A stretch of 20,535 nt of DNA from assembly GCA_011390385.1 (NCBI GenBank), contig JAABSN010000045.1:1-20535 (forward strand), written 5' to 3'. The stretch is from Thioalkalivibrio nitratireducens. Lineage in GTDB: Bacteria; Pseudomonadota; Gammaproteobacteria; Ectothiorhodospirales; Ectothiorhodospiraceae. The notes below the pieces were generated by a model. It made no database searches. It saw only the letters and a program-made list of their open reading frames with translations, and was not told the origin of the DNA. The translations under genes were made by a program, and so were the position numbers. The stretch's first letter is position 1. Each line of letters begins with the position of its first letter. Positions 3,846 through 20,126 of this stretch are shown here, piece by piece.

Positions 3846-4077
3846 GAAGGCGCGATGGAGGAGGATCGCGCATGCGCAAGACAGGCGGCGGAGACAAGGC
3901 CGCCATCCGTACAGCTCTCGGGTCCAGGCGGACAACACAGCAGTCATTCGTCAGCGCGCGGCACTCACCGCCATCAGCGGCGGCCACCGCTCAGGGCATC
4001 GCATCAGCCCTGCCAGGAACGAGCTTTACCGTCGCTCTCGCATCTGCAGGACCAGAGCAGGCCCGCGAGCCACCGGA

Positions 4078-4152
4078 TCAGATCGAATAGGCCAGCAACA
4101 TCGCTCCGATAATCGTCAGCGAAGCCATACCGGATGCCACGAGAATCTTCAT
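4078..4152 (-). CDS. Putative 24-residue single-helix membrane microprotein
   Basis: ATG 4152 to TGA 4078 encodes 24 residues starting MKILVASGMASL and ending AMLLAYSI: one charged residue at position 2, then a continuous hydrophobic helix long enough to span a membrane. GGAGAG lies about four bases before the ATG, one of the best ribosome binding sites in the window. The transcript would end at the terminator at 3823-3845, giving roughly 230 bases of 3' RNA. I do not recognise a family. Support comes from the ribosome binding site, codon reading and downstream terminator rather than homology, so chance is possible for so short an ORF. Confidence 0.5.
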   Translation of the reverse strand: MKILVASGMASLTIIGAMLLAYSI

Positions 4153-4381
4153 ACTGCTCTCCAATGCAGACGACAACGGCAACGCCGCTTCTCTATCCAG
4201 AAGACGGAAGCAGGTTCCGTGCCAAATCCGGCGCCGCAACGGAAATCAGTAAACAATGGTTTGTTTATATGTCGTTTTCCCATGAATCCGCTCCAGAGAC
4301 AATCTGTCGCGTTGCGCAGCCAATGCACCAAATTGCGCCAATCGAAACACGGGGGATTCGAGCAGAGCACCAACGTGCGAC

Positions 4382-4434
4382 CGGTGCGGTTCGGCTTCGC
4401 CGCACGGCACCCCGCACAGGTTCTTTCACGTTAA
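4382..4434 (+). repeat. Dispersed two-hairpin repeat, half copy A (second hairpin and tail)
   Basis: The second hairpin of the family (GGTGCGGTTCGGCTTCGCC, then CACGGCACC) is followed by a short spacer and the family tail CTTTCACGTTAA at 4423-4434. The first hairpin is missing or unrecognisable upstream. The tail ends only eight bases before the ATG of the RNA ligase gene, so the repeat makes up nearly the whole proximal leader of that gene. The only Shine-Dalgarno-like bases, CTGAAG, directly follow the repeat. Confidence 0.8.
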
Positions 4435-4442
4435 ACTGAAGC

Positions 4443-5540
4443 ATGGATCATCAGACATTGATGAATGCGCTGGAACTGGGGCGCGCCGAAAAACACTGCT
4501 TCGAGGATCTCGAGTACACGCGCCTGACGGAAACGGTCGCCCGGTATCCGAGAGGCAGCGTGGTCCTGCCGGACGGGGCCGTGATCCCCGGTTATCCGTC
4601 GATTGCGCGAATCCATTCCCTGTCGGCCGGGTTGCGCGAGCAGTTCCGGGGGCACTTCTGGGCCGAGGAAAAAATCGACGGCTACAATGTCCGCATCCTC
4701 AGCCATCAGGGACGCGTCTATGCGTTCAGCCGCGGAGGGTTCGTCTGCCCGTTCAGCACCGACCGCCTGCCCGATCTGATGCCGCTTTCGGTCTTCGAGT
4801 CCGAGCGGGACCTCGTCCTGTGCGCGGAGATCGCCGGTCCCGACAACCCGTATCTGGAGGGATCACCGCCGCACATCGAACACGACGTTCAGCTTTTCGT
4901 CTTCGACATGCTGCGCAAGGGTCAGCCGGGATTCCTGCCCCAGAACACAAAGATGCGGTTGCTCGAACGGCACGGCTTGCCGGCTACCCGTATCTTCGCG
5001 CGCTTTCGCCCCACTGACGTCGAACCCCTGCGCAAGCTGATCCTGCAACTCGACAGCGAGGGCGCGGAAGGCCTGGTACTGAAGGCGGAGGCCGAAGGCA
5101 ACCGTGCCAAGTACGTCACCGGTCGCTCGAACATCACCGATATCCAGGTATGCAGCGGACAGTTGCTGGACCTCCCACCGGAGTACTTCACCAACCGCCT
5201 GATGCGGCTGGCCCTGTTCGTAACCGAGCACAACCAACAGGGCGACCCGGAGCTGGAACGCAGTCTGGGCCAGGCGTTTCTGCAGGGGCTGGACCGAGCC
5301 GTGGAACGCAGCCGCGACAGCGGTCGCGTGCATCACCGCTACCGGTGCCGCTTTCGCGAGCGACGCAATGCCCTGCACTTCATCGAACACATGGCCGCGA
5401 CCGGTGGACAACGCGTGCGCATGGCGCCCGGAGTGCCCCGTAAGGAAGGTGGCTACTGGGCAATCGAGTTCGAACGGGTGTTCGATCGCATGACCGGCAC
5501 CTTGTCCACTGCGCTGTCCGGTGCCGTGCAATTCGACTGA
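4443..5540 (+). CDS. ATP-dependent RNA ligase, archaeal Pab1020/Rnl3 type (TIGR01209)
   Basis: A 365-residue nucleotidyltransferase-superfamily RNA ligase. Motif I is EEKIDGYNVRI, whose Lys would be the adenylylated residue. Motif III is the FVFDM region, motif IV is EGLVLK, and motif V is the NRAKYV segment. The length and the C-terminal helical domain fit the Pyrococcus abyssi Pab1020 / Methanothermobacter Rnl3 group, which joins or circularises 5'-phosphate and 3'-hydroxyl RNA ends in vitro; the cellular role is not settled. This group is typical of archaea and patchy in bacteria. Its convergent neighbour is the family's named partner protein, 18 bases away stop to stop. The ATG at 4443 has a weak ribosome binding site and directly follows repeat copy A. 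Confidence 0.9.
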   Translation: MDHQTLMNALELGRAEKHCFEDLEYTRLTETVARYPRGSVVLPDGAVIPGYPSIARIHSLSAGLREQFRGHFWAEEKIDGYNVRILSHQGRVYAFSRGGFVCPFSTDRLPDLMPLSVFESERDLVLCAEIAGPDNPYLEGSPPHIEHDVQLFVFDMLRKGQPGFLPQNTKMRLLERHGLPATRIFARFRPTDVEPLRKLILQLDSEGAEGLVLKAEAEGNRAKYVTGRSNITDIQVCSGQLLDLPPEYFTNRLMRLALFVTEHNQQGDPELERSLGQAFLQGLDRAVERSRDSGRVHHRYRCRFRERRNALHFIEHMAATGGQRVRMAPGVPRKEGGYWAIEFERVFDRMTGTLSTALSGAVQFD

Positions 5541-5558
5541 ACGCGGGTTCCGAAGGCC

Positions 5559-6158
5559 TCAACCGGCATCGGCGCCGGAGAGTTTTCCGTCCGCAAGGTT
5601 CTCCATCACCCGGCGCAGATAATCGACCGTGACCAGCTTGATCCCCATTCGGTTGCCGAGCTTGCGCATCCCCTGATCGGCGCTGGCCAGTTCGGCATCC
5701 AGCTCGAGTGCCAGGAGCACTGCATCGACGTCTTCACGCGAGTCGACCAGACCCTTGCGCATCGCCTCGCGAAACCGCTCGCGCAACTGGGTAATGAGTT
5801 CCGGCGGCATGTCGGCAGCCGCACCGGCACGTTTGGTATGCTCTTCGGCGATGCGCAGGCCGCGGTCGATCCGATGACGAACTTCGTCGATGAACTCGTA
5901 CAGAATGTCACTGGGAATCGTCAACGTGAAGCGACGTGGAGACCGTATCCAGACAACGGTCTCGAAGTCCGCTGCCAGCTCTTCGAGGTCCCGCATGGTG
6001 CGGAACTCCTCGTACACCGACAGTGGCATGTAGAATTCCGCCGGGCAGCGGCAGGCCAGGCGCAGGAAGGTCCGCAACCCCTCCCGGGGATCATCGCCGA
6101 ACTGACTGAACACATGGGGATTGGTGAAAAGACTGGTATCCAGAACGAAGCGGCGCAT
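5559..6158 (-). CDS. RNA ligase partner protein / HARP (minimal protein-only RNase P family)
   Basis: A 199-residue PIN-like protein of the MJ_0950 / RNA ligase partner family (TIGR03875), also called HARP, homologs of Aquifex RNase P. Members are RNA-free nucleases shown in Aquifex and Halorhodospira to cut the 5' leader from pre-tRNA. It begins MRRFVLDTS with the metal-binding Asp7. Further acidic residues Asp139, Asp143, Asp145 and Asp161 lie in VDSREDVDAVL and ASADQG, matching the PIN-type active site spacing. Residues about 85-135 are the helical insertion used for tRNA binding and oligomer formation in HARPs. The length is normal and no key acid is missing. It faces the RNA ligase gene tail to tail. 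Repeat copy B ends 25 bases before its ATG. Confidence 0.9.
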   Translation of the reverse strand: MRRFVLDTSLFTNPHVFSQFGDDPREGLRTFLRLACRCPAEFYMPLSVYEEFRTMRDLEELAADFETVVWIRSPRRFTLTIPSDILYEFIDEVRHRIDRGLRIAEEHTKRAGAAADMPPELITQLRERFREAMRKGLVDSREDVDAVLLALELDAELASADQGMRKLGNRMGIKLVTVDYLRRVMENLADGKLSGADAG

Positions 6159-6183
6159 GGATATATCCTGTCGCTAGACTGCC

Positions 6184-6311
6184 TTGCGGTGAAAGTCCAT
6201 CCCGTAGAGCGCCGTGAGGCGAAACCAAACCGCACCGGTGCCGGGTCGGGGTACCCCGTCCTTGTTCGGGCCTGGAACGGTGCAATTCGCTGCGCTCATT
6301 GGCACCCTACG
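6184..6311 (-). repeat. Dispersed two-hairpin repeat, full copy B
   Basis: On the minus strand it starts CGTAGGGTGCCAATGAGC, forms the first hairpin (closing GAATTGCACC), and has a variable middle of about 40 bases with its own GGGGTACCCC palindrome. The second hairpin (GGTGCGGTTTGG to CACGGC) follows, and the tail CTTTCACCGCAA ends at 6184. Its first hairpin is almost identical to that of copy D at 20000. The tail has diverged from CTTTCACGTTAA at the last bases. It points at the HARP start codon 25 bases away. Confidence 0.85.
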
Positions 6312-6487
6312 CCTGTGTCATGGTCTGGTGTGGCATCGGCACCATTGTATTCCTGGTCCATCATGGTCGGACCACTCGCGACGCGTCAACTCGGAATCTG
6401 GATCGGCGCAGATCACGCGCGTACCCTCGCAACCCTGTCCGCCGGCGATGGTCCACTTACAGAGGCAGCGACGTTAGAGGCACGGCA
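6312..6487. other. Rest of the 329-base gap before the methyltransferase gene
   Basis: The gap between the HARP start (6158) and the methyltransferase start (6488) holds repeat copy B and then these 176 bases. The methyltransferase frame stays open back to 6299, but the extra residues have no family-like content, so it is treated as leader. No convincing -35/-10 pair is visible. The ribosome binding site AGAGG sits about eight bases before ATG 6488. Confidence 0.6.
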
Positions 6488-7093
6488 ATGCGCGGGATCG
6501 AACACATTCCATGGCTGTATGACGCACTGATGAGCACCTGGGACTTCACCGGCTTCTCGCGCTGGCGACGGAAACTGGTGAGCACGGTCGAGAACCGAAT
6601 CCTTGAGGTAGGCTGTGGCACGGGGCGCAACCTGCCCCTGTACCCGGAGGGCAGCGAAGTGGTCGCGCTGGACCCTGACCTCGAAGCCCTTCGCCGGGCG
6701 CGCCGGCGGTCTCCCGGCGCGCTACTGGTCGTCGCCCGGGCCGAAGCCCTGCCCTTCCCCGCGGACCATTTTCAGACGATCGTCAGCGGGCTGGTCTTCT
6801 GCAGCGTGCAAGACCCAGCTGCCGGCCTTGCGGAAATCCGCCGCGTTCTGCGCCCGGACGGGCAACTGCGCATGATCGAGCATGTCCGTCACAGCCACCC
6901 CGCCCTGGCGCGGATACAGGACGGCGTCCAGCCGGCGTGGACCTGGGTGACCGGCGGCTGTCATCCGAACCGTGACACGGAGACCGCGGTGGAACACGCC
7001 GGTTTCACGATCGATCCCGAGGACCGCGTGGCCCGCGGCGTCATGCGTCGCTTCTCGGCGCGCCTGACCCGGCCGAAAGACCCGAGTCGGTGA
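6488..7093 (+). CDS. Class I SAM-dependent methyltransferase (Methyltransf_11 type)
   Basis: A 201-residue methyltransferase. The glycine-rich SAM loop ILEVGCGTGRNL lies near residues 38-49, the acidic post-strand-2 site is ALDPDLEAL, and AEALPFPADHFQTIVSGLVF followed by LRPDGQLRMIEHVR are motifs II-III of the UbiE/COQ5-like group. The late segment (TGGCHPNRDTETAVEHAGF) resembles the small METTL7-like or lipid methyltransferase subgroup, but the substrate cannot be assigned. ATG 6488 was chosen because homology starts there and AGAGG precedes it; the frame upstream to 6299 is not family-like. It converges on the deacetylase gene with 87 bases between the stops. Confidence 0.85.
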   Translation: MRGIEHIPWLYDALMSTWDFTGFSRWRRKLVSTVENRILEVGCGTGRNLPLYPEGSEVVALDPDLEALRRARRRSPGALLVVARAEALPFPADHFQTIVSGLVFCSVQDPAAGLAEIRRVLRPDGQLRMIEHVRHSHPALARIQDGVQPAWTWVTGGCHPNRDTETAVEHAGFTIDPEDRVARGVMRRFSARLTRPKDPSR

Positions 7094-7180: not shown

Positions 7181-8110
7181 TCACGACTCCGTCAGCACCT
7201 TCAGGTGCGTTGCAACACTGCGCCCCAAGGCGGAAAGGTTATACCCACCTTCCAGCGTCGAGACCAATCGACCGTCGCAGTGACGCTTGGCGATGTCATG
7301 CAACTGCAGGGTGAACCACTCGTAGTCTGCTTCCACCAGTCGGAAATTGGCCATGTCGTCTTCGAGATGGCCGTCGAAGCCGGCGGAGACCAGGATCAGT
7401 TCGGGCTGGAAGGCTTCGAGGGCTGGAAAGCACCGCTCCTCCACGACGTTGCGCAGCGCGGCGCCATCGCTGTCCCGGGGCAACGGCAGGTTCAGAATGT
7501 TTTCGCTGCGCGTATCCGCACCAGTGTTCGGATAAAACGGGTGTTGAAAACTCGAGCAGAAAAAGACACGTGCATCGTCACGAAAAATATCCTCGGTCCC
7601 GTTCCCGTGATGCACATCGAAATCGACGATGGCGACCCGTGACAACCCGTGCGCCTCCAGCGCATGGGCCGCGCCAATCGCGACGTTGTTGAACAGGCAA
7701 AAACCCATGCCGTAGTCGCGACCGGCATGATGACCCGGCGGCCGCACCGCGCAGAAAGCCGTGTGCGTGGCGTTTTCGAGCACGAGATCGACTCCCAGGA
7801 CCACGGCGCCGGCGGCCCTTTGCGCCGCTTTCAGGCTGTGCTCGCCGACGTAGGTGTCACCACCATCCAGCGTCGCCCAGCGCCCGGGTTCCGGAACCCC
7901 CGCCTCCAGTGCATCGATGTATTCGGCGTCGTGCACGCGCAACAGCTGCTCGCGCGTAACCAACGGCGCCTCGCGATGACGCAGCCAGGGCTCGATCCCG
8001 GAGGCGATCAGCTGGTCGTCGATCGCCGCGAGTCGCTCCGGGCATTCCGGATGCTCAAAGGGCGCCCGGTGCAGCGCGCAATCAGGATGGGAGATAAAGA
8101 AGGTTTTCAC
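7181..8110 (-). CDS. Histone deacetylase family protein (HDAC-like amidohydrolase)
   Basis: A 309-residue zinc-dependent amidohydrolase of the arginase/deacetylase fold (acetoin utilisation protein / HDAC superfamily). Visible motifs are RPPGHHA (catalytic His pair), GFCLFNN, DFDVHHGNGT (zinc Asp and His), SAGFDGHLEDDM (second zinc Asp) and LEGGYN. These proteins remove acetyl or other acyl groups from lysines, polyamines or small amides. The start is the GTG at 8110: MKTFFISHPDCALH is the usual beginning of the family and AGGGG lies eight bases upstream. The long open frame beyond it (to 10027) is the antisense of the next gene. It is divergent from the acyl-CoA synthetase/acetyltransferase gene, so the pair may make and remove acyl marks; this is inference. 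Confidence 0.92.
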   Translation of the reverse strand: MKTFFISHPDCALHRAPFEHPECPERLAAIDDQLIASGIEPWLRHREAPLVTREQLLRVHDAEYIDALEAGVPEPGRWATLDGGDTYVGEHSLKAAQRAAGAVVLGVDLVLENATHTAFCAVRPPGHHAGRDYGMGFCLFNNVAIGAAHALEAHGLSRVAIVDFDVHHGNGTEDIFRDDARVFFCSSFQHPFYPNTGADTRSENILNLPLPRDSDGAALRNVVEERCFPALEAFQPELILVSAGFDGHLEDDMANFRLVEADYEWFTLQLHDIAKRHCDGRLVSTLEGGYNLSALGRSVATHLKVLTES

Positions 8111-8177
8111 GTCGACAGCCCCTGGAAGCGGGGACCCCGATGCGGACCCACCATCGGGCCTGAACCGGACCGCTTCA

Positions 8178-8254: not shown

Positions 8255-10942
8255 ATGGGCCCACACTATCTGAACCGCATCCTTTCCGCCCGCAGCATCG
8301 CACTCATCGGCGCGAGCAACCAAACGGGTAGCGTCGGCTCCACGATTCTGAAGAACCTGCTGGCGATGGGCTTCGAGGGGGAGTTGTACCCGGTCAATCC
8401 GAAATACAAGAAAGTCCACGGACGCAAGAGCCATCCCAGCGTGGGAGCGATCGGAAGGAACATCGACCTCGCCATCATCGCCACACCGGCCGACACCATT
8501 CCTGACATCATCCGGGAATGCGGCAAGGCCGATGTTCAGGGCGCCATCGTGATGTCCGCCGGCTTCGGTGAGGGAGGGTCCGAAGGGACCCGCCTGCAGG
8601 ACCGGATGCGGGAGGCGGCCCGGGAAACCGGATTGCGCATCATCGGCCCCAACTGCCTGGGCATCATGCGCCCGTCGCGCAGGATCAACGCCACCTTCAG
8701 CCGTAACAGCGCCGTACCCGGACACCTGGCACTGGTCTCTCAATCCGGCGCGATCTGCTCGGCGATCCTCGACTGGGCCGAGGACCAACGCATCGGATTT
8801 TCGCTGGTCGCGTCCCTCGGCGACGCTGCCGACGTGGACTTCGGGGATGTCCTCGATTTTCTGGCGCTGGACCCGGAGACCCGCAGCATCCTCCTGTATA
8901 TCGAGGGCATCCGGAACGCCCGCAGCTTCATGAGTGGCCTGCGTGCGGCGGCGCGCATGAAACCGGTGATCGTGATCAAGGCCGGGCGACACGCCGAGGG
9001 TTCGCGGGCGGCGATGTCCCATACCGGGGCAATGGTCGGCGCGGACGACGTTTTCGATGCAGCGCTGGAACGCGCGGGCGCGGTGCGTGCGCAGACGGTG
9101 CAGCAGATGTTCTCGGCCGCCAGCATCCTGTCCAGTGGCGTACGGGCGCGGGGAAACCGGCTGGCGATCGTGACCAATGCCGGCGGCCCCGGCGTGATGG
9201 CCACGGACCGGGCTGTGGAACTGGACCTCTCGATCCCTGATCTGCACGCCCAGACGTTGAAGCGGCTGGATGCCGCATTGCCGCCCCACTGGTCGCATGG
9301 CAATCCCGTGGATCTGCTCGGCGACGCGGACCCAAGCCGCTATGAAACCGCCCTGGCAGCCTGCCTGAAGGATCCGGGGGTTGACGGCGTTCTGGCAATG
9401 CTCACGCCACAGGCGATGACCGACTCCGATGCAATCGCCGAGATCGTGATCCGCAGCAGCGCTGGCGGAAGGGACAGCAAGCCTGTGCTGGCATGCTGGA
9501 TGGGCGGCAAGCAGGTCGAAAAGGCCCGGGACCGTTTCATCGCCGAACGGCTTCCGAGCTTCATCACCCCGGAGGCCTCGATCGAGGCTTTCGCGTATCT
9601 TACGGCTCACCAACGCAACCAGCGCCTGTTGCTCCAGGTTCCGGGACCTCTCAGCGACCGCAGTCCGGCCGATGTCGAGGGCGCTCGCATGATCATCGAG
9701 GGCGCCCTCGGCGAGGGTCGCCGTTCGCTGGGAACCATGGAGTCCAAGGCAGTGCTCGCTGCGTTCCGGATTCCGGTGACGCAGACCGTGCAGGCGCACA
9801 ACCCCAGTGAGGCGCTGGTCGCCGCGAGCACGCTGGGCTATCCACTGGCGATGAAGATCGCTTCGCCCGACATCACTCACAAGTCCGACGTCGGCGGCGT
9901 GCGGCTGAACATCACGACCGCCGAGGCGGTACGCAAATGCTTCCAGGCCATGATGCAGGAAGCAGCGGAAGCGCGACCCGAAGCGCGCCTCGAGGGTGTG
10001 ACCCTTGAGCGAATGTATCGAAGTCATTACGGGCGCGAACTGATGGTGGGGGTTCTGCGCGATCCGGTGTTCGGGCCGGTGATCAGCTTCGGTTCGGGCG
10101 GTACTTCAGTAGAAGTGCTGCAGGATCGGGCGGTGGCGCTGCCGCCGCTGAACGAGACCATCATCCGCGGAATGATCGGCCGCACGCGCGTGGCCCGTCT
10201 ACTGCAGCGTTTCCGGCACATGCCTCCGGTCGACGTCGCAGCGCTGGAGCAGGTACTGCTGCGCATCTCGGAAATGGTCTGCGAGTTGCCGGAAGTACTG
10301 GAACTCGACATCAATCCGCTGATCGTCGACGAAAACGGTCTGGCCGCGGTGGACGCACGAATCGTGGTTGATTTCCCGCCCAGCCAGGCCGATCGTTACG
10401 GACACATGGCGATCCATCCCTACCCGGGGCATCTCGTCGAGCAATGGCCGATGCCGGACGGCATCACACTGACGGTGCGGCCGATCCGTCCGGAGGACGC
10501 GCAGATCGAACAGGCATTCGTGCGCAGCCTGTCCGACGAATCACGCTATTTCCGGTTCATGCAGGCGGTGCACGAGCTTACTCAGGAGATGCTGGTCCGG
10601 TTCACCCAGATCGATTACGACCGTGAGATGGCGATGATCGCAGTGGTCGAACCCGACCCCGGGGTCGAGAAGCAGGTGGCCGTAGCCCGCTACACGGCCT
10701 ACCCCGACAAACGCAGTTGCGAATTCGCGATCGTGGTCGCCGACGAATGGCAGGGCCGCGGCATCGGCACCCATCTGATGCAGACACTGATGCGGGTGGC
10801 AAAGTCCCGCGGCATCAGCCTGATGGAGGGCGAGATCATTGCCGGAAACACCCACATGCTGGGGCTGATGCGTCACCTGGGCTTCAAGATCCGGGCGACT
10901 GAGGACGACGAAGGCGTGGTCCAGGCAGCGCGCGAACTCTAA
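8255..10942 (+). CDS. NDP-forming acyl-CoA synthetase fused to GNAT acetyltransferase (PatZ/Pat-like)
   Basis: An 895-residue protein, close to the length of E. coli PatZ. Residues 1-130 are the CoA-binding Rossmann domain (IALIGASNQTGSVG). Residues 150-455 are the succinyl-CoA-synthetase-like ligase domains. Residues 490-710 are the ATP-grasp domain (MKIASPDITHKSDVGGV, then LDINPLIVDENG). Residues 738-890 are a GNAT domain with the acetyl-CoA loop EWQGRGIGTHLM. His256 in MSHTGAMVG corresponds to the phosphohistidine of active ADP-forming acyl-CoA synthetases; as I recall, PatZ lacks it. This protein may therefore both make acyl-CoA from acid and nucleotide triphosphate and acetylate lysines, for instance on acetyl-CoA synthetase. 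The ribosome binding site at ATG 8255 is weak. It is divergent from the HDAC-type deacetylase. Confidence 0.92.
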   Translation: MGPHYLNRILSARSIALIGASNQTGSVGSTILKNLLAMGFEGELYPVNPKYKKVHGRKSHPSVGAIGRNIDLAIIATPADTIPDIIRECGKADVQGAIVMSAGFGEGGSEGTRLQDRMREAARETGLRIIGPNCLGIMRPSRRINATFSRNSAVPGHLALVSQSGAICSAILDWAEDQRIGFSLVASLGDAADVDFGDVLDFLALDPETRSILLYIEGIRNARSFMSGLRAAARMKPVIVIKAGRHAEGSRAAMSHTGAMVGADDVFDAALERAGAVRAQTVQQMFSAASILSSGVRARGNRLAIVTNAGGPGVMATDRAVELDLSIPDLHAQTLKRLDAALPPHWSHGNPVDLLGDADPSRYETALAACLKDPGVDGVLAMLTPQAMTDSDAIAEIVIRSSAGGRDSKPVLACWMGGKQVEKARDRFIAERLPSFITPEASIEAFAYLTAHQRNQRLLLQVPGPLSDRSPADVEGARMIIEGALGEGRRSLGTMESKAVLAAFRIPVTQTVQAHNPSEALVAASTLGYPLAMKIASPDITHKSDVGGVRLNITTAEAVRKCFQAMMQEAAEARPEARLEGVTLERMYRSHYGRELMVGVLRDPVFGPVISFGSGGTSVEVLQDRAVALPPLNETIIRGMIGRTRVARLLQRFRHMPPVDVAALEQVLLRISEMVCELPEVLELDINPLIVDENGLAAVDARIVVDFPPSQADRYGHMAIHPYPGHLVEQWPMPDGITLTVRPIRPEDAQIEQAFVRSLSDESRYFRFMQAVHELTQEMLVRFTQIDYDREMAMIAVVEPDPGVEKQVAVARYTAYPDKRSCEFAIVVADEWQGRGIGTHLMQTLMRVAKSRGISLMEGEIIAGNTHMLGLMRHLGFKIRATEDDEGVVQAAREL

Positions 10943-12949: not shown

Positions 12950-13075
12950 TTAACGTGAAAGTCCTTGCAGGGTGCCGTGAGGCGCAGCCGAAGCGCACCG
13001 ATACGCGGCCAGGCCTGACCTTCAGGCTCCCTGGCTTCGAGCGGTACAACTCGCTGCGCTTGTTGGCACCCTGCG
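12950..13075 (-). repeat. Dispersed two-hairpin repeat, full copy C
   Basis: On the minus strand: GCAGGGTGCCAACAAGCGC begins the first hairpin (closing GAGTTGTACC), then a variable middle of about 40 bases. The second hairpin (GGTGCGCTTCGGCTGCGCC, then CACGGCACC) and the tail CTTTCACGTTAA (12961-12950) follow. It matches copies B and D over both hairpins but not in the middle. It points at the tspO start codon 45 bases away. Confidence 0.85.
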
Positions 13076-13624: not shown

Positions 13625-15031
13625 TCAGTGTTGATGCCCATTCGGCACCGGCTTGCGCACCTGCATCTCGAAAGCGGTACGGTTCAGGTCGGGAACCTCG
13701 CCCCGGTTGAGACGTTCCGCGGCGAAACGCTGCGGCTCCGGCATGGATCCGGTCCATTCGTAGGCCTGGGTTCCGGCCGGTTGCTGATACCAGCCAGGAT
13801 CCGAGTAATCGCCCGGTTTCTGGTCCCGGCGGACCTTGAGCGTGGTAAACATGCCGCCCATGCCGATCGGCCCGTGCGGACCGAAACCGGCCATCATCGC
13901 GAGCGTCTCCTCCGGCAGCATCATCTGCATATCCTTCATGTCCGCCATTCCCCGCTCGCCCATGAGCATGTAGTCGGGCACGAGTTCCTGAATCCGTCCC
14001 ACCAGGCCGCGGTGATCGACCCCGATCATGGTCGGCACATCGTGACCCATGGGGTTCATGGTGTGATGGCTCTTATGGCAATGAAAGGCCCAGTCACCCT
14101 CGGAATCGGCAATGAATTCGACCTGGCGCATCTGGCCGACCGCAATGTCGGAGGTGACCTCCGGCCACCGTGAACCGGGTGGGGTCGGACCACCATCAGT
14201 GCCCGTGACTTCGAACTCATGGCCGTGCAGATGGATCGGGTGGTTGGTCATCGTGAGGTTGCCAACCCGGATGCGTACCCGGTCGCCGAGGCGGACATTG
14301 AACGAATCGATACCCGGAAATGCCCGGCTGTTGAAGGTCCACAGATTGAAGTCGAGCATGGTGTTGATCTTCGGCACCACGCTGCCGGGATCGACGTCAT
14401 AGGCATTCAACAGAAAACAGAAGTCCCGTTCAGCCTCGTTGATCCAATCATGCTTCTGGCGTGGATGGGTCACCCAGAAACCCATCATTCCCATCGCCAT
14501 CTGCACCATTTCGTCGGCATGCGGGTGGTACATGAAAGTGCCCGGGCGGCGCGCCACGAATTCGTACACGAAGGTCTTGCCAACCGGGATGGATTTCTGA
14601 TTCAGACCGGCCACTCCATCCATGCCATTTGGCAGCCGCTGGCCGTGCCAGTGAATCGTGGTCTGCTCGGGCAGACGGTTGGTCACGAACAGGCGCACGC
14701 GATCGCCCTCGACCACCTCGATGGTCGGTCCCGGACTCTGACCGTTGTAACCCCATAGCCGGGCGATCATTCCAGGAGCGATCTCGCGTTCGACCGGTTC
14801 CGCAACGAGGTGGAATTCCTTCACACCATTATTCATGCGCCACGGTGCAGTCCAGCCATTCAGCGTGACCACCGGGTTGTAGGGACGACCCTTGTCGGGC
14901 ATGCGCGGCGGCGCGGTCCCCGGCGAGGTCATGATGGCAGGCTCGGGTAACGCGGCCAGTGCGACCTTGCTGACCCCGGACACCGCCACGGCACCCAGTG
15001 CTGCTCCGCTGATAAAATCGCGTCGATTCAT
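13625..15031 (-). CDS. Tat-exported multicopper oxidase (copper resistance type)
   Basis: A 468-residue multicopper oxidase. Residues 1-28 are a twin-arginine signal (NRRDFISGAAL). Copper ligands are all present: TIHWHG (127-129), HPHADE (169-171), NHPIHLHGH (264-271) and HCHKSHHTMNPM (317-328, type 1 Cys318 with Met328). It should oxidise copper(I) to the less toxic copper(II) in the periplasm using oxygen. Oddly, about 140 residues follow the type 1 site, including a Met-rich segment (355-394) with 11 Met. ATG 15031 fits the Tat signal and has GGAGGG ten bases upstream. The frame upstream belongs to the tolC end; the genes are four bases apart. Confidence 0.92.
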   Translation of the reverse strand: MNRRDFISGAALGAVAVSGVSKVALAALPEPAIMTSPGTAPPRMPDKGRPYNPVVTLNGWTAPWRMNNGVKEFHLVAEPVEREIAPGMIARLWGYNGQSPGPTIEVVEGDRVRLFVTNRLPEQTTIHWHGQRLPNGMDGVAGLNQKSIPVGKTFVYEFVARRPGTFMYHPHADEMVQMAMGMMGFWVTHPRQKHDWINEAERDFCFLLNAYDVDPGSVVPKINTMLDFNLWTFNSRAFPGIDSFNVRLGDRVRIRVGNLTMTNHPIHLHGHEFEVTGTDGGPTPPGSRWPEVTSDIAVGQMRQVEFIADSEGDWAFHCHKSHHTMNPMGHDVPTMIGVDHRGLVGRIQELVPDYMLMGERGMADMKDMQMMLPEETLAMMAGFGPHGPIGMGGMFTTLKVRRDQKPGDYSDPGWYQQPAGTQAYEWTGSMPEPQRFAAERLNRGEVPDLNRTAFEMQVRKPVPNGHQH

Positions 15032-15035
15032 GATT

Positions 15036-16346
15036 TCAGTGCCCTCCTGCGGCAGATTTGCGGCCCGTGGCGACGGCACCGGTGTCGGGTCCGGGATACT
15101 CGGCTCCGGCAAGCACGGCCTGCAGGTTCGCGTGTGCCAGCCAGAAATCGCGTTGGGCCTGAACCGCGGCAGCGGCGCGTTCCACCCGATCGCGGGCGCT
15201 CGACAGCAGGTCCCAGGTACTTTTCAGCATGCCGTTGTAGCGCAGCACCATGTCCTCCTGAATGTCCTCGCTCAGGCGTTGATTCGCTTCCGCCCGCTGC
15301 GCGATGTCGTACGCGACCCGGTACTGATGGTAGGCCTCGCGCACTTCGGAACGGATCCTGACTGCCAGCGCCGCCGCCTCGGCCTGGGCCTTTGCAGCCT
15401 GGGCCGCCTCATGGCCAGGGGGCAAACGGCGACGCTCCAGGACGGGGGCCGACCGGATGAGTGGTTGCATCGATCCGTTACCGGCACCTGCCGAACCCAG
15501 CGCGTCGGAAAGCGCCTTCTCGGCAGCATCGTTCCACATATCCCTGGTCCGGGACGCCAATCCCCGCCGTGCGCGCTCGGCCTCGATCGCCAGGAGCGAA
15601 AGTGTGGGATGGTTCTGCAGTGCCGCATTCTCCAGTCCGTCGGCACCGGGGAGGGTATCGGGGAGTTCCGGGAGCTGCTCGGGAAGGGGCAAATCGCCGA
15701 CTTCACCCCACAGGCCGAGCGTTCGGTTCAGCGCTTCGCGGGCACTCGCCGCGGACTGTCGTGCCCGTGACAATTCGATGCCCGCATCGGACAGATCCAG
15801 TTGTTGCCGCAGAAGGCGATCCTGCCCCCAGTTTCCCACCCGCGTCATGCGCACGGCGAGTTCGGTCGCAATCTCCGAAGCCTCGAACGCCTCCTCGGCG
15901 CGGCGCAGGGCTGCCGTGGCCGCAACCGCCTCGATCCATGTGCGCTGAACATCGCGGGCGAATCCCAGGACAGCGACATCGGCCCGTGTACGCTGCAATC
16001 GGTTCATGTCCTCGGTGGCAAAGAGATCGGGGCGGTTCGACAGTGCGATGCGCAGAGCATCAACCGACGACAGCGGTTTTCCGTCCGGCCGCGCCTCGGC
16101 AGCGGCAGGCCGGTTCTCGGCCTCCCAACGGATGATGTCAATGTGGCCTCGCGTGAAGGCCCCGACCATGTCGTTCGCTGCGCGCCATCCGTCTTCCCCC
16201 ATCGCAACCGCATCGAGAACAGATGGAGCCACTGGAACGAAGGCGGGTTCGGGAACCGGCACAGCCGGGTCATACGGCTGGATTGCCATCGCGAGGTTTG
16301 GGAACAGGCTCGAGGCGAGCAGCAGGCACACGGCAGTTCGTTGCAT
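15036..16346 (-). CDS. TolC-family outer-membrane efflux protein
   Basis: A 436-residue protein with an N-terminal signal peptide (MQRTAVCLLLASSLFPNLAMA) and two long alpha-helical, Ala/Glu/Arg-rich halves. Repeated heptad-like stretches (AALRRAEEAFEASEIATELAVRM; AEAAALAVRIRSEVREAYHQYRVAYDIAQRAE) fit the outer-membrane efflux protein fold, which trimerises into an outer-membrane channel with a periplasmic tunnel. The ATG at 16346 (preceded by TTG 16349) has GGAGAG upstream. It sits between copD and the multicopper oxidase, the place often held by copB in cop operons. No CusA/CusB pump genes are in the window, so its inner-membrane partner is unknown. Confidence 0.87.
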   Translation of the reverse strand: MQRTAVCLLLASSLFPNLAMAIQPYDPAVPVPEPAFVPVAPSVLDAVAMGEDGWRAANDMVGAFTRGHIDIIRWEAENRPAAAEARPDGKPLSSVDALRIALSNRPDLFATEDMNRLQRTRADVAVLGFARDVQRTWIEAVAATAALRRAEEAFEASEIATELAVRMTRVGNWGQDRLLRQQLDLSDAGIELSRARQSAASAREALNRTLGLWGEVGDLPLPEQLPELPDTLPGADGLENAALQNHPTLSLLAIEAERARRGLASRTRDMWNDAAEKALSDALGSAGAGNGSMQPLIRSAPVLERRRLPPGHEAAQAAKAQAEAAALAVRIRSEVREAYHQYRVAYDIAQRAEANQRLSEDIQEDMVLRYNGMLKSTWDLLSSARDRVERAAAAVQAQRDFWLAHANLQAVLAGAEYPGPDTGAVATGRKSAAGGH

Positions 16347-16373
16347 CAAGGCATCTCTCCCTTCCGTTCGATC

Positions 16374-17273
16374 TCACCCATTGGGTGACGTCGTGGTTGT
16401 CAGCAGCGCGGTCATAAACAGGATCAGCAGCACCAGAAAGCCTTCTCCAAGAATGCTTCGCCGCAGGCGCCGGTCCGCGTTCGGCTCTCTCCGCTCGAAG
16501 GCCGGAACCAACAGCCATTTGTTCATCGCCGCAAGCACGAGCAGCAACAGAACCAGTGCAATCTTGAGCAGCAGGATCTGCCCGTAAGCGGTCTCCAGAA
16601 AGGCAGCCGTCGCGCCTAGCAGCAACCAGGCCAACACCAGCCCGGCCGCCAGCAGGAACCCGACCGTCACTGATGCCACCCGACCAAAGGCCGCAAGGAC
16701 TTGGCCGGCAACCTCGTGCGGAACCGCGTGTCCAGCCATTCGGTAAAGCGGAATCAGCGCACCCACCCAGAAAGCCACGGCCCCCAGGTGAATCAGAAGC
16801 AGCCCCCCCAGAAGCCAATACGGACCGTCGTTGGTGTGCCCGACCTGCGTGAAAGCCAGGAACACCAAGATCACCCCCGTCACACTCAAACCGATGCCCG
16901 GATACCGCAGTCGCCCCCTGGCCATCAGGACTCCGTGCAGCAGAAGCAGTCCGCTGGCTGCAAGGATCATCCTGGTTCCCTGGGCGCTTTCGAAGGCAAT
17001 GCCGAGCAGCACCGGATCGATCGCGGCACCCAGGGTGCTCCCGCCGAGAAACCCGGCCTGCAACGGCCACTGCAGAAGCAATAGTGTCAGCGCGATCCAG
17101 GCAGCAATGACGACGGAATGACGCAGACCGACATCGCCCTGTTCCCATCGAAATGCCAGCCCAAACAGGACACCCCCCGTCGCAATGAGCGCACTCGCAT
17201 AGAAGGCCGCGGCTGCGAGGACCATCGACAGTGTCCAGGCGTCCATGCCATCGAGAACCGAAACCCAATCCAC
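16374..17273 (-). CDS. copD: CopD-family inner-membrane copper protein
   Basis: A 299-residue membrane protein with about eight hydrophobic helices, fitting the CopD domain family. Family-like features are TQVGHTNDGPYWLLGGLLLIHLGAVAFWVGALIPL (conserved HTND and HLGAVAFWVG) and a KIALVLLLLVLAAMNKW segment near the C-terminus (KxxLVxxxLxLAxxNK). CopD is thought to move copper across the inner membrane together with periplasmic CopC. The start is GTG 17273, three bases after the copC stop, implying coupled translation; an ATG at 17246 is an alternative. The C-terminus is threonine-rich and ends just before the tolC gene. Confidence 0.88.
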   Translation of the reverse strand: MDWVSVLDGMDAWTLSMVLAAAAFYASALIATGGVLFGLAFRWEQGDVGLRHSVVIAAWIALTLLLLQWPLQAGFLGGSTLGAAIDPVLLGIAFESAQGTRMILAASGLLLLHGVLMARGRLRYPGIGLSVTGVILVFLAFTQVGHTNDGPYWLLGGLLLIHLGAVAFWVGALIPLYRMAGHAVPHEVAGQVLAAFGRVASVTVGFLLAAGLVLAWLLLGATAAFLETAYGQILLLKIALVLLLLVLAAMNKWLLVPAFERREPNADRRLRRSILGEGFLVLLILFMTALLTTTTSPNG

Positions 17274-17276
17274 TTT

Positions 17277-17621
17277 TCAGCGGACGGTGAAGTAAAACTC
17301 GTCGGACATGGCATGGCCATCCTCGGCCAGGCCACGCCATCGAACGGTGTATTCGCCGGATCCCAACATACTTTCTGGCGCGGTCTCGAACTGGCTGATC
17401 AATGCACCTCCCGGACGCTCGCTGAGCGCGACCGGCCCATCAGGACCCGACACTTCGAAGAATGTCAGACGCATGTCGTGATCGAACCAGATAGCGATTC
17501 GTTCCGGGCTGGTTTCGAGCGTCGATTCGTGTTCCGGGTATGACCCTTCCTGTTGTGCATGGGCCCAAAGGGTCGGCGGCAGCAGCAACGCAAGAGCCAC
17601 AATCAAGGCAGGCACTTTCAA
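17277..17621 (-). CDS. copC: CopC-family periplasmic copper-binding protein
   Basis: With a TTG start at 17621 the product is 114 residues: a signal peptide (MKVPALIVALALLLPPTLWA) and a mature part starting HAQQEGSYPEHE. The mature N-terminal His is the CopC copper(II) ligand, and DGHAMSDEFYFTV near the end carries the second conserved His. The WFDHDMRLTFFEV and GEYTVRWRGLAEDGH segments are typical CopC beta strands. The frame is open to 17819 and the start is uncertain: TTG 17621 gives a normal signal peptide but lacks a close ribosome binding site; ATG 17705 would add 28 residues before it. It is the first gene of the copper operon, divergent from the regulator. Confidence 0.83.
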   Translation of the reverse strand: MKVPALIVALALLLPPTLWAHAQQEGSYPEHESTLETSPERIAIWFDHDMRLTFFEVSGPDGPVALSERPGGALISQFETAPESMLGSGEYTVRWRGLAEDGHAMSDEFYFTVR

Positions 17622-17762
17622 TGTCGAGTGTGTAATGGCGAATCCTCTGGCTGGTATCTTGAGCGAATCGGAGTGCGCGATGTTCGGCGCAGCTCCGCGC
17701 GTCATCTGGCGCAAACTCCGCAAGATGATGCAGCCGGCAACCGAACACCGGCCTGACAGGGA

Positions 17763-17780
17763 CATTACAAATCTGTCATG
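17763..17780. promoter_or_regulatory. CopR/CusR-type operator dyad
   Basis: CATTACA (17763-17769), four bases AATC, then TGTCATG (17774-17780): a 7-4-7 dyad with one mismatch. Operators of CusR/CopR-type heavy-metal response regulators are short AT-leaning dyads of this kind. It sits in the divergent space between copC and the response regulator gene, where one site could control both directions. An additional TGACA lies at 17754-17758. Consensus core promoter boxes are not evident on either side, as is usual for activator-dependent promoters. Confidence 0.55.
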
Positions 17781-17845
17781 TTTCCGGTCGTCGTCGATGC
17801 CGGTGGCAGAATGGTGCACTGACGAGGGCAGCGGGTGGCAGCTTC

Positions 17846-18526
17846 ATGAAGATCCTGATCGTGGAGGACGAACCGAAGACCGGTGAATACCTGCGCCAGG
17901 GCCTGAGCGAAGCCGGGTTCGTCGTCGATCTCGCGCGCGACGGGCTCGACGGGCTGCACCTCGCAACGACCGGCGATCACGACCTGCTGGTGCTGGATGT
18001 CATGCTGCCGCGCATGGATGGTTGGGCAGTTCTGCAAGCACTCAGACTCTCCGGACACCAGGTGCCGGTGTTGTTCCTGACCGCGCGGGATGAGGTCGAC
18101 GATCGCGTTCGCGGACTTGAACTCGGCGCCGATGACTATCTCGTGAAGCCCTTTGCCTTCGCTGAGCTCCTCGCACGGGTTCGCGGTCTGCTGCGGCGAG
18201 GCCGCAACAAGGAACCGGAGATCCTGACCGCCGCCGATCTGGAGATCGATCTGTTGCGCCGCCGTGTACGGCGCGGTGGCGTGAGGATCGATCTCACTGC
18301 CAAGGAATTCGCGTTACTGGAGCTCCTCGTCCGCAGGCAGGGGGAAGTCCTGCCCAGATCGCTGATCGCCTCGCAGGTCTGGGACATGAACTTCGACAGC
18401 GATACCAACGTGATCGAAGTCGCCGTCCGGAGATTGCGTGCGAAAATCGACGATCCCTTCGAACCCAGGCTCATCCGAACCGTCCGCGGCATGGGCTACG
18501 TACTCGAACCCCCGGAGGACGGATGA
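17846..18526 (+). CDS. Heavy-metal response regulator, CusR/CopR type (OmpR family)
   Basis: A 226-residue response regulator. The receiver domain spans 1-115 with acidic pocket Glu7-Asp8, phosphoacceptor Asp51 in [14 protein letters not shown], Thr79 and Lys101 (YLVKPF). The winged-helix DNA-binding domain spans about 130-224 ([53 protein letters not shown]). Its pattern is that of the cztR/silR/copR heavy-metal subgroup. Its gene overlaps the sensor kinase by four bases (ATGA) and is divergent from the copper operon, so it most likely activates that operon and possibly itself through the dyad at 17763. Confidence 0.92.
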
Positions 18527-19956
18527 GTCCCGGCCTCCTCCCTCGCCATGTGAAACCACGCCGGCCGCTGTCACTGACGGCGCGGCTGGCGCTCCTGTTC
18601 GCAACGTTCGCCGCAGTCCTGATGCTCGGCCTCGGCATCCTGATGGAACGGGCGGTCGACATCCACTTCGACGAAATGGATGCGTATGATCTGACCGCAA
18701 AGATGACGGTCATCGGCAATCTGGTTGCCCGAACGCGGAATCAACGCGATCTGGAGACACTACCGCAACGTCTTCACGATGCGCTGGCGGGCCACGAGAA
18801 CATCGCGGTACTTCTGCGTGACGCGGAAGGAGTCGTCATCTTCGGCGCGCAATTGAACCGTTTCCCAAGAGCCAGGCTCGCCGGGGAAGGCGCCCGTGCA
18901 GCAGAGGAAAGCTGGGTTCGCGACGGGCGCCATTTCATCAGTCGGGAACGCAGCTTCGAACTGCCTGTTCCGGAGCCGACGACGCTTCATGCCGTGGTCG
19001 CGCTCGATGTCAGCCATCACATCCATTTTCTACGCGAGATACGCAGGCATCTCTGGCTCGGCGTGGCGCTCGCTGCTGCCTTTGCCGCCGTACTCGGCTG
19101 GTTGGCCGCGCGACAGGGACTGGTGCCACTGGCGAGAATCACCGCTACGGCACGCCGCCTGTCGGCGGAACGGCTTGGCGAACGCATTGCTGAACGCGAC
19201 GCACCCGCGGAGGTGCGCGAACTCGCACACGCGTTCAATGGCATGCTCGATCGCCTCGAAGGGTCGTTCCAGCGCCTCAGCCACTTCTCGGCCGATATTG
19301 CACACGAACTCCGAACCCCGGTTTCCAATCTGATCACCGGGACCCAGGTGGCATTGTCACGCGCCCGCAGTGCCGACGCGTACCGCGATACCCTCCACTC
19401 GAACCTCGAAGAGTTCGACCGCCTCGCGCGCATGATCGGCGACATGCTCTTTCTGGCCAAGGCCGACAACGGACTGCTGCCACGGCCCGCGGAAACCATC
19501 GAGCTGGAGGTCGAGACCCAGGCTCTGCTCGAATTCTACGAGGCACTGGCCGACGATCAGGGCGTGCGATTGCGGTTGCGCGGCGAGGCCAGCGTCGTTG
19601 GCGATCGCCTGATGTTGCGCCGCGCGCTCTCCAATCTGCTTTCGAACGCGCTCCGCCATACGGCGTCGGGTGCCACGGTCGAGATCGACATTCGCCGGCG
19701 GGAAAACGACGCCATCGTCACGATACGTAACCCGGGAGCAGTGATTCCTGCCGACCGCCTTCCGCTGCTCTTCGACCGCTTTCACCGCGTGGATGATTCG
19801 CGGTCGGAACGCGGTGAAGGCGCGGGTCTCGGCCTGGCGATCACGAAATCCATTGTCAAGGCCCATGGCGGCACCATCGACGTCGAGTCCGCGGACGGGT
19901 TCACCACCTTTTCGGTACGCCTTCCGCGGGACCCTTCCGTCCAGTTCCATGGCTGA
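18523..19956 (+). CDS. Heavy-metal sensor histidine kinase, CusS/CopS type
   Basis: A 477-residue membrane kinase. Transmembrane helices lie at about 20-40 and 178-197, enclosing a periplasmic sensor domain with several His residues (HHIHF, 165-169). A HAMP linker (200-250) follows, then the dimerisation domain with His261 in [16 protein letters not shown], and an ATPase domain with N-box [10 protein letters not shown], a Cus-type [23 protein letters not shown] segment and [13 protein letters not shown]. It should sense periplasmic copper or silver and phosphorylate the regulator encoded just before it. The start is fixed by the ATGA overlap with the regulator stop. Confidence 0.92.
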
Positions 19957-19999: not shown

Positions 20000-20126
20000 C
20001 GTAGGGTGCCAATGAGCGCAGCGAATTGCACCGCGAGAGGACCGGGAGCCTGGATCCGGGGCGGCGTGCTTCCGGTGCGGTTCGGCTGCGCCTCACGGCA
20101 CCCTGCGGGGCCTGCTTTCACGTTAA
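20000..20126 (+). repeat. Dispersed two-hairpin repeat, full copy D
   Basis: CGTAGGGTGCCAATGAGCGC opens the first hairpin (closing GAATTGCACC), followed by a variable middle with a CCGGGAGCCTGGATCCGGG inner fold. The second hairpin (GGTGCGGTTCGGCTGCGCC, then CACGGCACC) and the tail CTTTCACGTTAA (20115-20126) complete it. The first hairpin is nearly identical to copy B and the second to copy C. The tail runs straight into AAAAGGAG, the ribosome binding site of the cytochrome c gene. Confidence 0.88.

Follow-up and report, generated by a model that had tools for sequence, protein, structure and literature searches.

Linkage between the genes for HARP and for the Rnl3 type of RNA ligase is published (Seshadri & Gopalan, mBio 2025; PMC12153264). 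The ligase was present in 665 of 751 HARP-positive genomes; in bacteria, 127 of 164 cases had the two genes near each other, as a rule in a layout termed 'bidirectional', and Thioalkalivibrio was named as a carrier genus of the pair (PMC12153264). C/D-box RNA maturation, 5'-adenylation, a toxin-antitoxin function, and coincidence were the readings discussed there. This paper was the sole match of literature searches on HARP with Thioalkalivibrio and on HARP with RNA ligase, and among the 20 matches listed, out of 289, in a further search, no other paper contained 'RNA ligase partner'. The finding of HARP beside an RNA ligase is therefore not new; the question behind the pair is why a protein RNase P is retained in some bacteria alongside the ribozyme.

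Each half of the pair has a described relative. In the RNase P of Aquifex aeolicus (Aq_880), which is a HARP, the R129A variant is inactive and the R125A variant strongly impaired in pre-tRNA cleavage, and K119 is one of five basic residues that were mutated together (excerpted text of PMC8266387). Substrates of the archaeal Rnl3 ligase Pab1020, from Pyrococcus abyssi, include C/D-box sRNAs (PMC12153264). Here we describe a ligase gene (+) and a HARP gene (–) that lie tail to tail, with 18 bases between them, in a window of 20,535 nucleotides (the whole stretch of DNA that was analysed), and that are a real, intact member of the published pair.

An intact HARP-ligase pair

4443..5540, + strand: ATP-dependent RNA ligase, Rnl3 / Pab1020 type, 365 aa (TIGR01209, PF09414, PF18330, PDB 3qwu)
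5541..5558, no strand: gap of 18 nt between the convergent stop codons, with no terminator-like site in the gap
5559..6158, – strand: HARP / 'RNA ligase partner protein', PIN nuclease, 199 aa (PF08745, TIGR03875, NF003344, PDB 7og5)

Both open reading frames lie where the preliminary description had placed them, and both proteins score far above the curated cut-offs of the families that it had named. The window HARP scored 221.1 bits against TIGR03875, 'RNA_lig_partner' (cut-off 95.3), and 207.6 against PF08745 (cut-off 27), and matched PDB entry 7og5, 'RNA-free ribonuclease P', with E=4e-77. The active site attributed to it is intact: among HARPs from 79 loci and the window (80 sequences, the truncated L042 being left out), Asp139, Asp143, and Asp161 were identical in 80/80 and Asp7 in the 79/79 with data, the residue being missing from one truncated protein. 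Arg126, Arg130, and Arg134 were likewise arginine in 80/80, and the first two are the equivalents of the spike-helix arginines R125 and R129 of Aquifex. By its profiles, catalytic aspartates, and arginines, the window protein is a HARP of the same family as Aq_880, although members of its clade were reported inactive on pre-tRNA. It differs from the Aquifex enzyme in that RNase P is kept by the window's relatives, as discussed below, and its clade differs at the position of K119, which was Glu in 92% of the 39 HARPs of the window's clade, whereas 89% of 18 Aquificota had Lys there.

The window ligase scored 306.2 bits against TIGR01209 (cut-off 136.9) and exceeded the cut-offs for PF09414 and for PF18330, the C-terminal domain that it has in common with Pab1020; its relatives in the PDB were 3qwu (E=5e-101) and 2vug/PAB1020. 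In an alignment of 23 sequences, the nucleotidyltransferase motif residues, K77, E129, K214, and K223 among them, showed no variation, in agreement with the integrity that had been claimed for them before. Family profiles and motif residues make the protein an Rnl3 RNA ligase, for which joining or circularising activity is predicted. Between the window and five relatives, dN/dS was 0.03-0.05 in HARP, and the ligase gave values of 0.06-0.12. In both trees the window was sister to L001, from a Thioalkalivibrio metagenome-assembled genome, with 96% identity for HARP and 91% identity over 316 columns for the ligase.

Linkage and co-inheritance of the two genes

A scan of GTDB genome contigs yielded 328 relatives of the locus, and the best 80, a sample skewed to the window's kin, were studied. 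The ligase gene adjoined HARP in 61 of these 80 loci, so that the pairing given in the preliminary description, already published, is seen again here; pair-carrying strains include Thioalkalivibrio versutus AL 2, T. thiocyanoxidans ARh2, and Methylonatrum kenyense AMT 1. Every bacterial pair for which the two stop codons could be seen (62/62, window counted) was convergent, with a coding overlap of 4-54 nt in 20, a gap of 1-88 nt in 39, and spacings of 187, 839, and 1070 nt in the three widest-spaced pairs. Our results agree with PMC12153264 in the two families, in their co-occurrence, and in their close, 'bidirectional' placement, and differ in that the main text there says 'bidirectional', whereas the bacterial pairs seen here were all convergent and frequently overlapped in their coding regions. 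Terminator-like sites at 4000-6500 of the window numbered 2, against 1.7 expected.

A further difference from the published linkage is a divergent layout on two haloarchaeal plasmids. HARP was found in five plasmid records, all haloarchaeal; the ligase gene adjoined it on two (L106 and L108), with the genes divergent and 121 and 98 bases between their starts, and no ligase was found on the other three, the search covering plasmid sequences only. Because the bacterial layout is convergent and the haloarchaeal one divergent, the adjacency may have arisen or been rearranged more than once; the two divergent cases suggest this and are too few for proof.

Among the 19 loci without an adjoining ligase, 16 belong to genomes that have a ligase above the cut-off elsewhere, and G021 has a ligase end fragment below the cut-off; in the HARP carriers G022 and G031, whose genomes are possibly incomplete, the profile search found no ligase. 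Separation of the two genes was seen in 10 of 18 Aquificota, against 9 of the 62 loci from elsewhere (Fisher p 0.0009). Loss of RNase P leading to loss of linkage was considered and rejected: all 18 Aquificota are without rnpA or rnpB above the cut-off, linked or not, and the independent events are few.

To describe the surroundings of the pair, the ORFs of the 80 loci and of the window (5404 in all) were clustered, with flanks of up to 10 kb and many loci shorter on one side. The loci were sorted by hand into 27 groups, and, besides HARP, the ligase, and overlapping frames, no cluster occurred in more than 5 of these; the next most recurrent (5/27) looks, by its motif, like an ABC-type ATPase. 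From one lineage to another the immediate neighbours of the pair differed, as judged in 15 listed loci, and the window contained no tRNA or Rfam RNA. Since no other gene cluster recurs widely beside the pair, the unit is HARP plus ligase.

Several comparisons bear on co-inheritance, for which phylogenetic co-occurrence had been proposed as a check, and they bore it out. First, in a sample of 47 genomes from the order, HARP was found in 29 and the ligase in all 29 as well as in G067, where the ligase gene starts 61 bases from a contig end, in the direction in which HARP would be expected. Second, a sample across the class comprised 369 genomes that, the centre genome G005 excepted, were not picked for HARP; in it, HARP was found in 17 and the ligase above the cut-off in 15, all within those 17 (Fisher p 7e-25, uncorrected for relatedness); judged from their coordinates, the genes were adjacent in 12 of the 15 ligase carriers and convergent in all 12. 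Third, HARP and ligase distance matrices correlated with r=0.92 over 59 pairs, three pairs with truncated proteins having been dropped, and 0/2000 permutations gave a value as high; r was 0.91 within Ectothiorhodospiraceae and near kin (34 pairs) and 0.89 outside (25 pairs), and the two trees were similar. Because this correlation includes species relatedness, it speaks for shared descent, not coevolution, and co-occurrence inside one order is a matter of few independent events. Against co-inheritance, two of four control genomes that were HARP-positive by PF08745, Thermus composti and Haloferax volcanii, had no ligase.

The two genes might also have been retained in parallel, each useful independently in hot, salty, or alkaline habitats, HARP as a rugged spare RNase P and the ligase for general RNA repair, with no common substrate. 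HARP carriers are mostly extremophiles, and the authors of the published study allow this reading (PMC12153264). We consider it unlikely, as it leaves unexplained both the similar trees and an adjacency that, in 61/80 loci, comes with no recurring third gene.

RNase P and fibrillarin in HARP-carrying relatives

RNase P and fibrillarin results refer to the genomes of the window's relatives. In a first set of 16 non-Aquificota HARP genomes, RNase P RNA was above the cut-off in 14 and RnpA was found in 15. The window's closest kin account for both genomes that lack a full RNA match: G001, the genome of L001, has two sub-threshold RNase P RNA fragments, and G002, that of L002, has no RNA match, with RnpA present in both; G016 has the RNA and no RnpA match. 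A second set of 25 more such genomes had RnpA in 24 and the RNA above the cut-off in 19; none was without both, and G450 had the RNA only. RNase P RNA and/or protein is thus kept in 41/41 non-Aquificota HARP genomes, in line with the earlier presumption that an ordinary RNase P is present. In contrast, neither rnpA nor rnpB was found above the cut-off in 18/18 Aquificota tested, with a weak RNase P RNA match in G017 (17.9 bits vs a cut-off of 100).

With the RNA of RNase P, its protein, or both present in the window's relatives, HARP does not serve as the housekeeping RNase P in this clade. Yet its residues are invariant and its dN/dS is low, a strong constraint in the presence of RNase P, and HARP would therefore have to cut another RNA. 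According to PMC12153264, the HARPs of Alkalilimnicola, Halorhodospira, and Thioalkalivibrio were reported not to process pre-tRNA. Section 16 of a review (PMC10941002) notes that misfolding could explain inactive HARPs and that RNase P activity is seen in some HARPs whose genomes encode both RNase P forms. The general statement with which the analysis began, that HARPs process pre-tRNA, accordingly holds for some enzymes from dual-enzyme genomes and, as reported, fails for three of the window's clade. Retention of R126 and R130, the Glu of the clade at K119, and the reported inactivity on pre-tRNA together suggest that the target of HARP is an RNA with a tRNA-type elbow and not an ordinary pre-tRNA end.

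Alternatively, HARP could process pre-tRNA as a reserve RNase P or one used under stress, while the ligase repairs tRNAs; the two would then have tRNA in common and separate reaction paths. The invariant elbow-binding arginines and catalytic aspartates are compatible with such a role, as is the RNase P activity that the review section cited above notes for certain HARPs whose genomes also have RNP RNase P. The stated inactivity of the clade's HARPs on pre-tRNA and the Glu at the K119 position argue against it, and we regard a back-up role as unlikely.

Fibrillarin was above the cut-off in 0/33 HARP-carrying bacterial genomes, with sub-threshold matches in 7, and in 4 of 14 controls, of which five (four archaea and Thermotoga maritima) gave any match. 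The published C/D-box model, tested here against bacteria, therefore does not fit them, and we rejected C/D-box sRNA circularisation as the bacterial function. The fibrillarin data remove, for bacteria, one published answer to the question why both RNase P forms are kept, and they set the 33 HARP bacteria apart from Pab1020 with its archaeal C/D-box substrates.

Candidate functions of the pair

Other proposals for a joint function fared less well than cutting and sealing. In a toxin-antitoxin pair, HARP would be the toxin and the ligase an antidote acting by repair, and HARP does fall in the VapC-like PIN group (PMC12153264). PADLOC gave no match, however; the partner is a 365-aa ligase and not a small antitoxin, the genes are convergent and not in an operon, no HARP or ligase relative was confirmed in viral contigs and no HARP in phage records, and two HARP genomes, possibly incomplete, were found without the ligase. 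We hold a toxin-antitoxin function to be highly improbable. A 5'-adenylation cycle, in which the ligase, under stress, would mainly adenylate the 5' ends of RNA, the adenylated leader being removed later by HARP, was proposed from the strong adenylation and weak ligation of Palaeococcus Rnl3 (PMC12153264). We found no sequence feature in its favour and give it little credence.

A cut-and-seal pathway acting on tRNA-like RNA, the general form of which had been put forward in the preliminary description, remains the best reading of the pair, unproven as it is and built on a linkage that was already published. By homology, HARP would assemble into a ring, grip RNA by its tRNA-like elbow, and cut it so that the new ends carry a 5'-phosphate and a 3'-hydroxyl. 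With ATP, the Rnl3 ligase could seal such ends, either within one molecule, to form a circle, or across a nick, to effect repair. HARP and the ligase would then act on the same RNA, with its tRNA-type elbow, and use this end chemistry. The evidence moderately supports a joint function of the pair and narrows the candidates, and we give an even chance to HARP and Rnl3 being two enzymes of one RNA-processing pathway. A more specific proposal, which we advance tentatively and regard as possible rather than probable, is that in extremophile Gammaproteobacteria the two make up a pathway dedicated to RNA circularisation or tRNA repair, which acts on a bacterial RNA with a tRNA-type elbow and is separate both from housekeeping RNase P and from archaeal C/D-box RNA; the linkage would have arisen independently in bacteria (convergent) and in haloarchaea (divergent).

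Leaders and a dispersed repeat

6360..6389, – strand: HARP promoter-like site TTGACG-18-CATGAT (leader scan, alignment with L001)
6203..6311, no strand: dispersed inverted-doublet hairpin repeat in the HARP leader, with units at 6237-6203 (–) and 6278-6311 (+)
4432..4437, + strand: TAAACT, a hexamer resembling a -10 element, five bases upstream of the ligase start codon (clade comparison)
4382..4416, + strand: copy of the repeat unit just upstream of the ligase, a single unit being recognised
411-445, 12966-13075, 20000-20107: other repeat sites

The promoter-like site of HARP is intact in the window but lies 200 nt from the start codon there, and 27-33 nt from it in 10/10 close relatives with a full-length leader. 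Its pattern fits 14 of the 33 HARP leaders scanned (window included), and the promoter reading is therefore weaker outside the window's clade. On the ligase side, TACACT or TAAACT stood at this position upstream of the start in 12/12 clade members with upstream sequence (window included), and the ligase mRNA may possibly be leaderless.

A repeat in the leaders of both genes had been taken as a hint of shared expression. Both leaders do contain the repeat, but further copies lie elsewhere, eight units in all in the 20.5-kb window, and it was not found in 105 related loci or in shuffled loci. The three sites with two opposed units fold into long hairpins (z -1.7, -4.8, -4.1), and the ligase-side copy does not stand out in folding (z -0.6). 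The opposed-doublet layout is that of REPIN-type elements. The HARP-side repeat sits between the conserved HARP promoter and the start codon, in a stretch that L001 is without, and the copy near 344-513 stands where L003 has about 28 bases; the repeat is a candidate young family of the window's lineage. We rejected it as shared regulation of the pair, and with it the hint of shared expression, on the grounds that it is a dispersed hairpin, was not found in the related loci, and intrudes between promoter and start. Because two copies flank the pair in opposite orientation, we also considered that they might be the ends of a mobile cassette carrying it, and rejected this as well, since L001 is without the HARP-side copy and since L001, L002, and L003 all retain the start of the neighbouring methyltransferase gene.

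Other genes in the window

A copper-handling cluster at 13625-19956 comprises genes for a multicopper oxidase, an outer-membrane efflux protein, CopD, CopC, a response regulator, and a CusS-type sensor kinase. At 849-2233 (–), a gene for a DUF2064 protein adjoins one for a TIGR04283 'arsenosugar biosynthesis' glycosyltransferase. A histone-deacetylase-family gene at 7181-8128 (–) is divergent from a gene for a CoA-ligase/ATP-grasp/GNAT fusion at 8255-10942 (+), and their domains suggest that the two are possibly a protein-acetylation pair.
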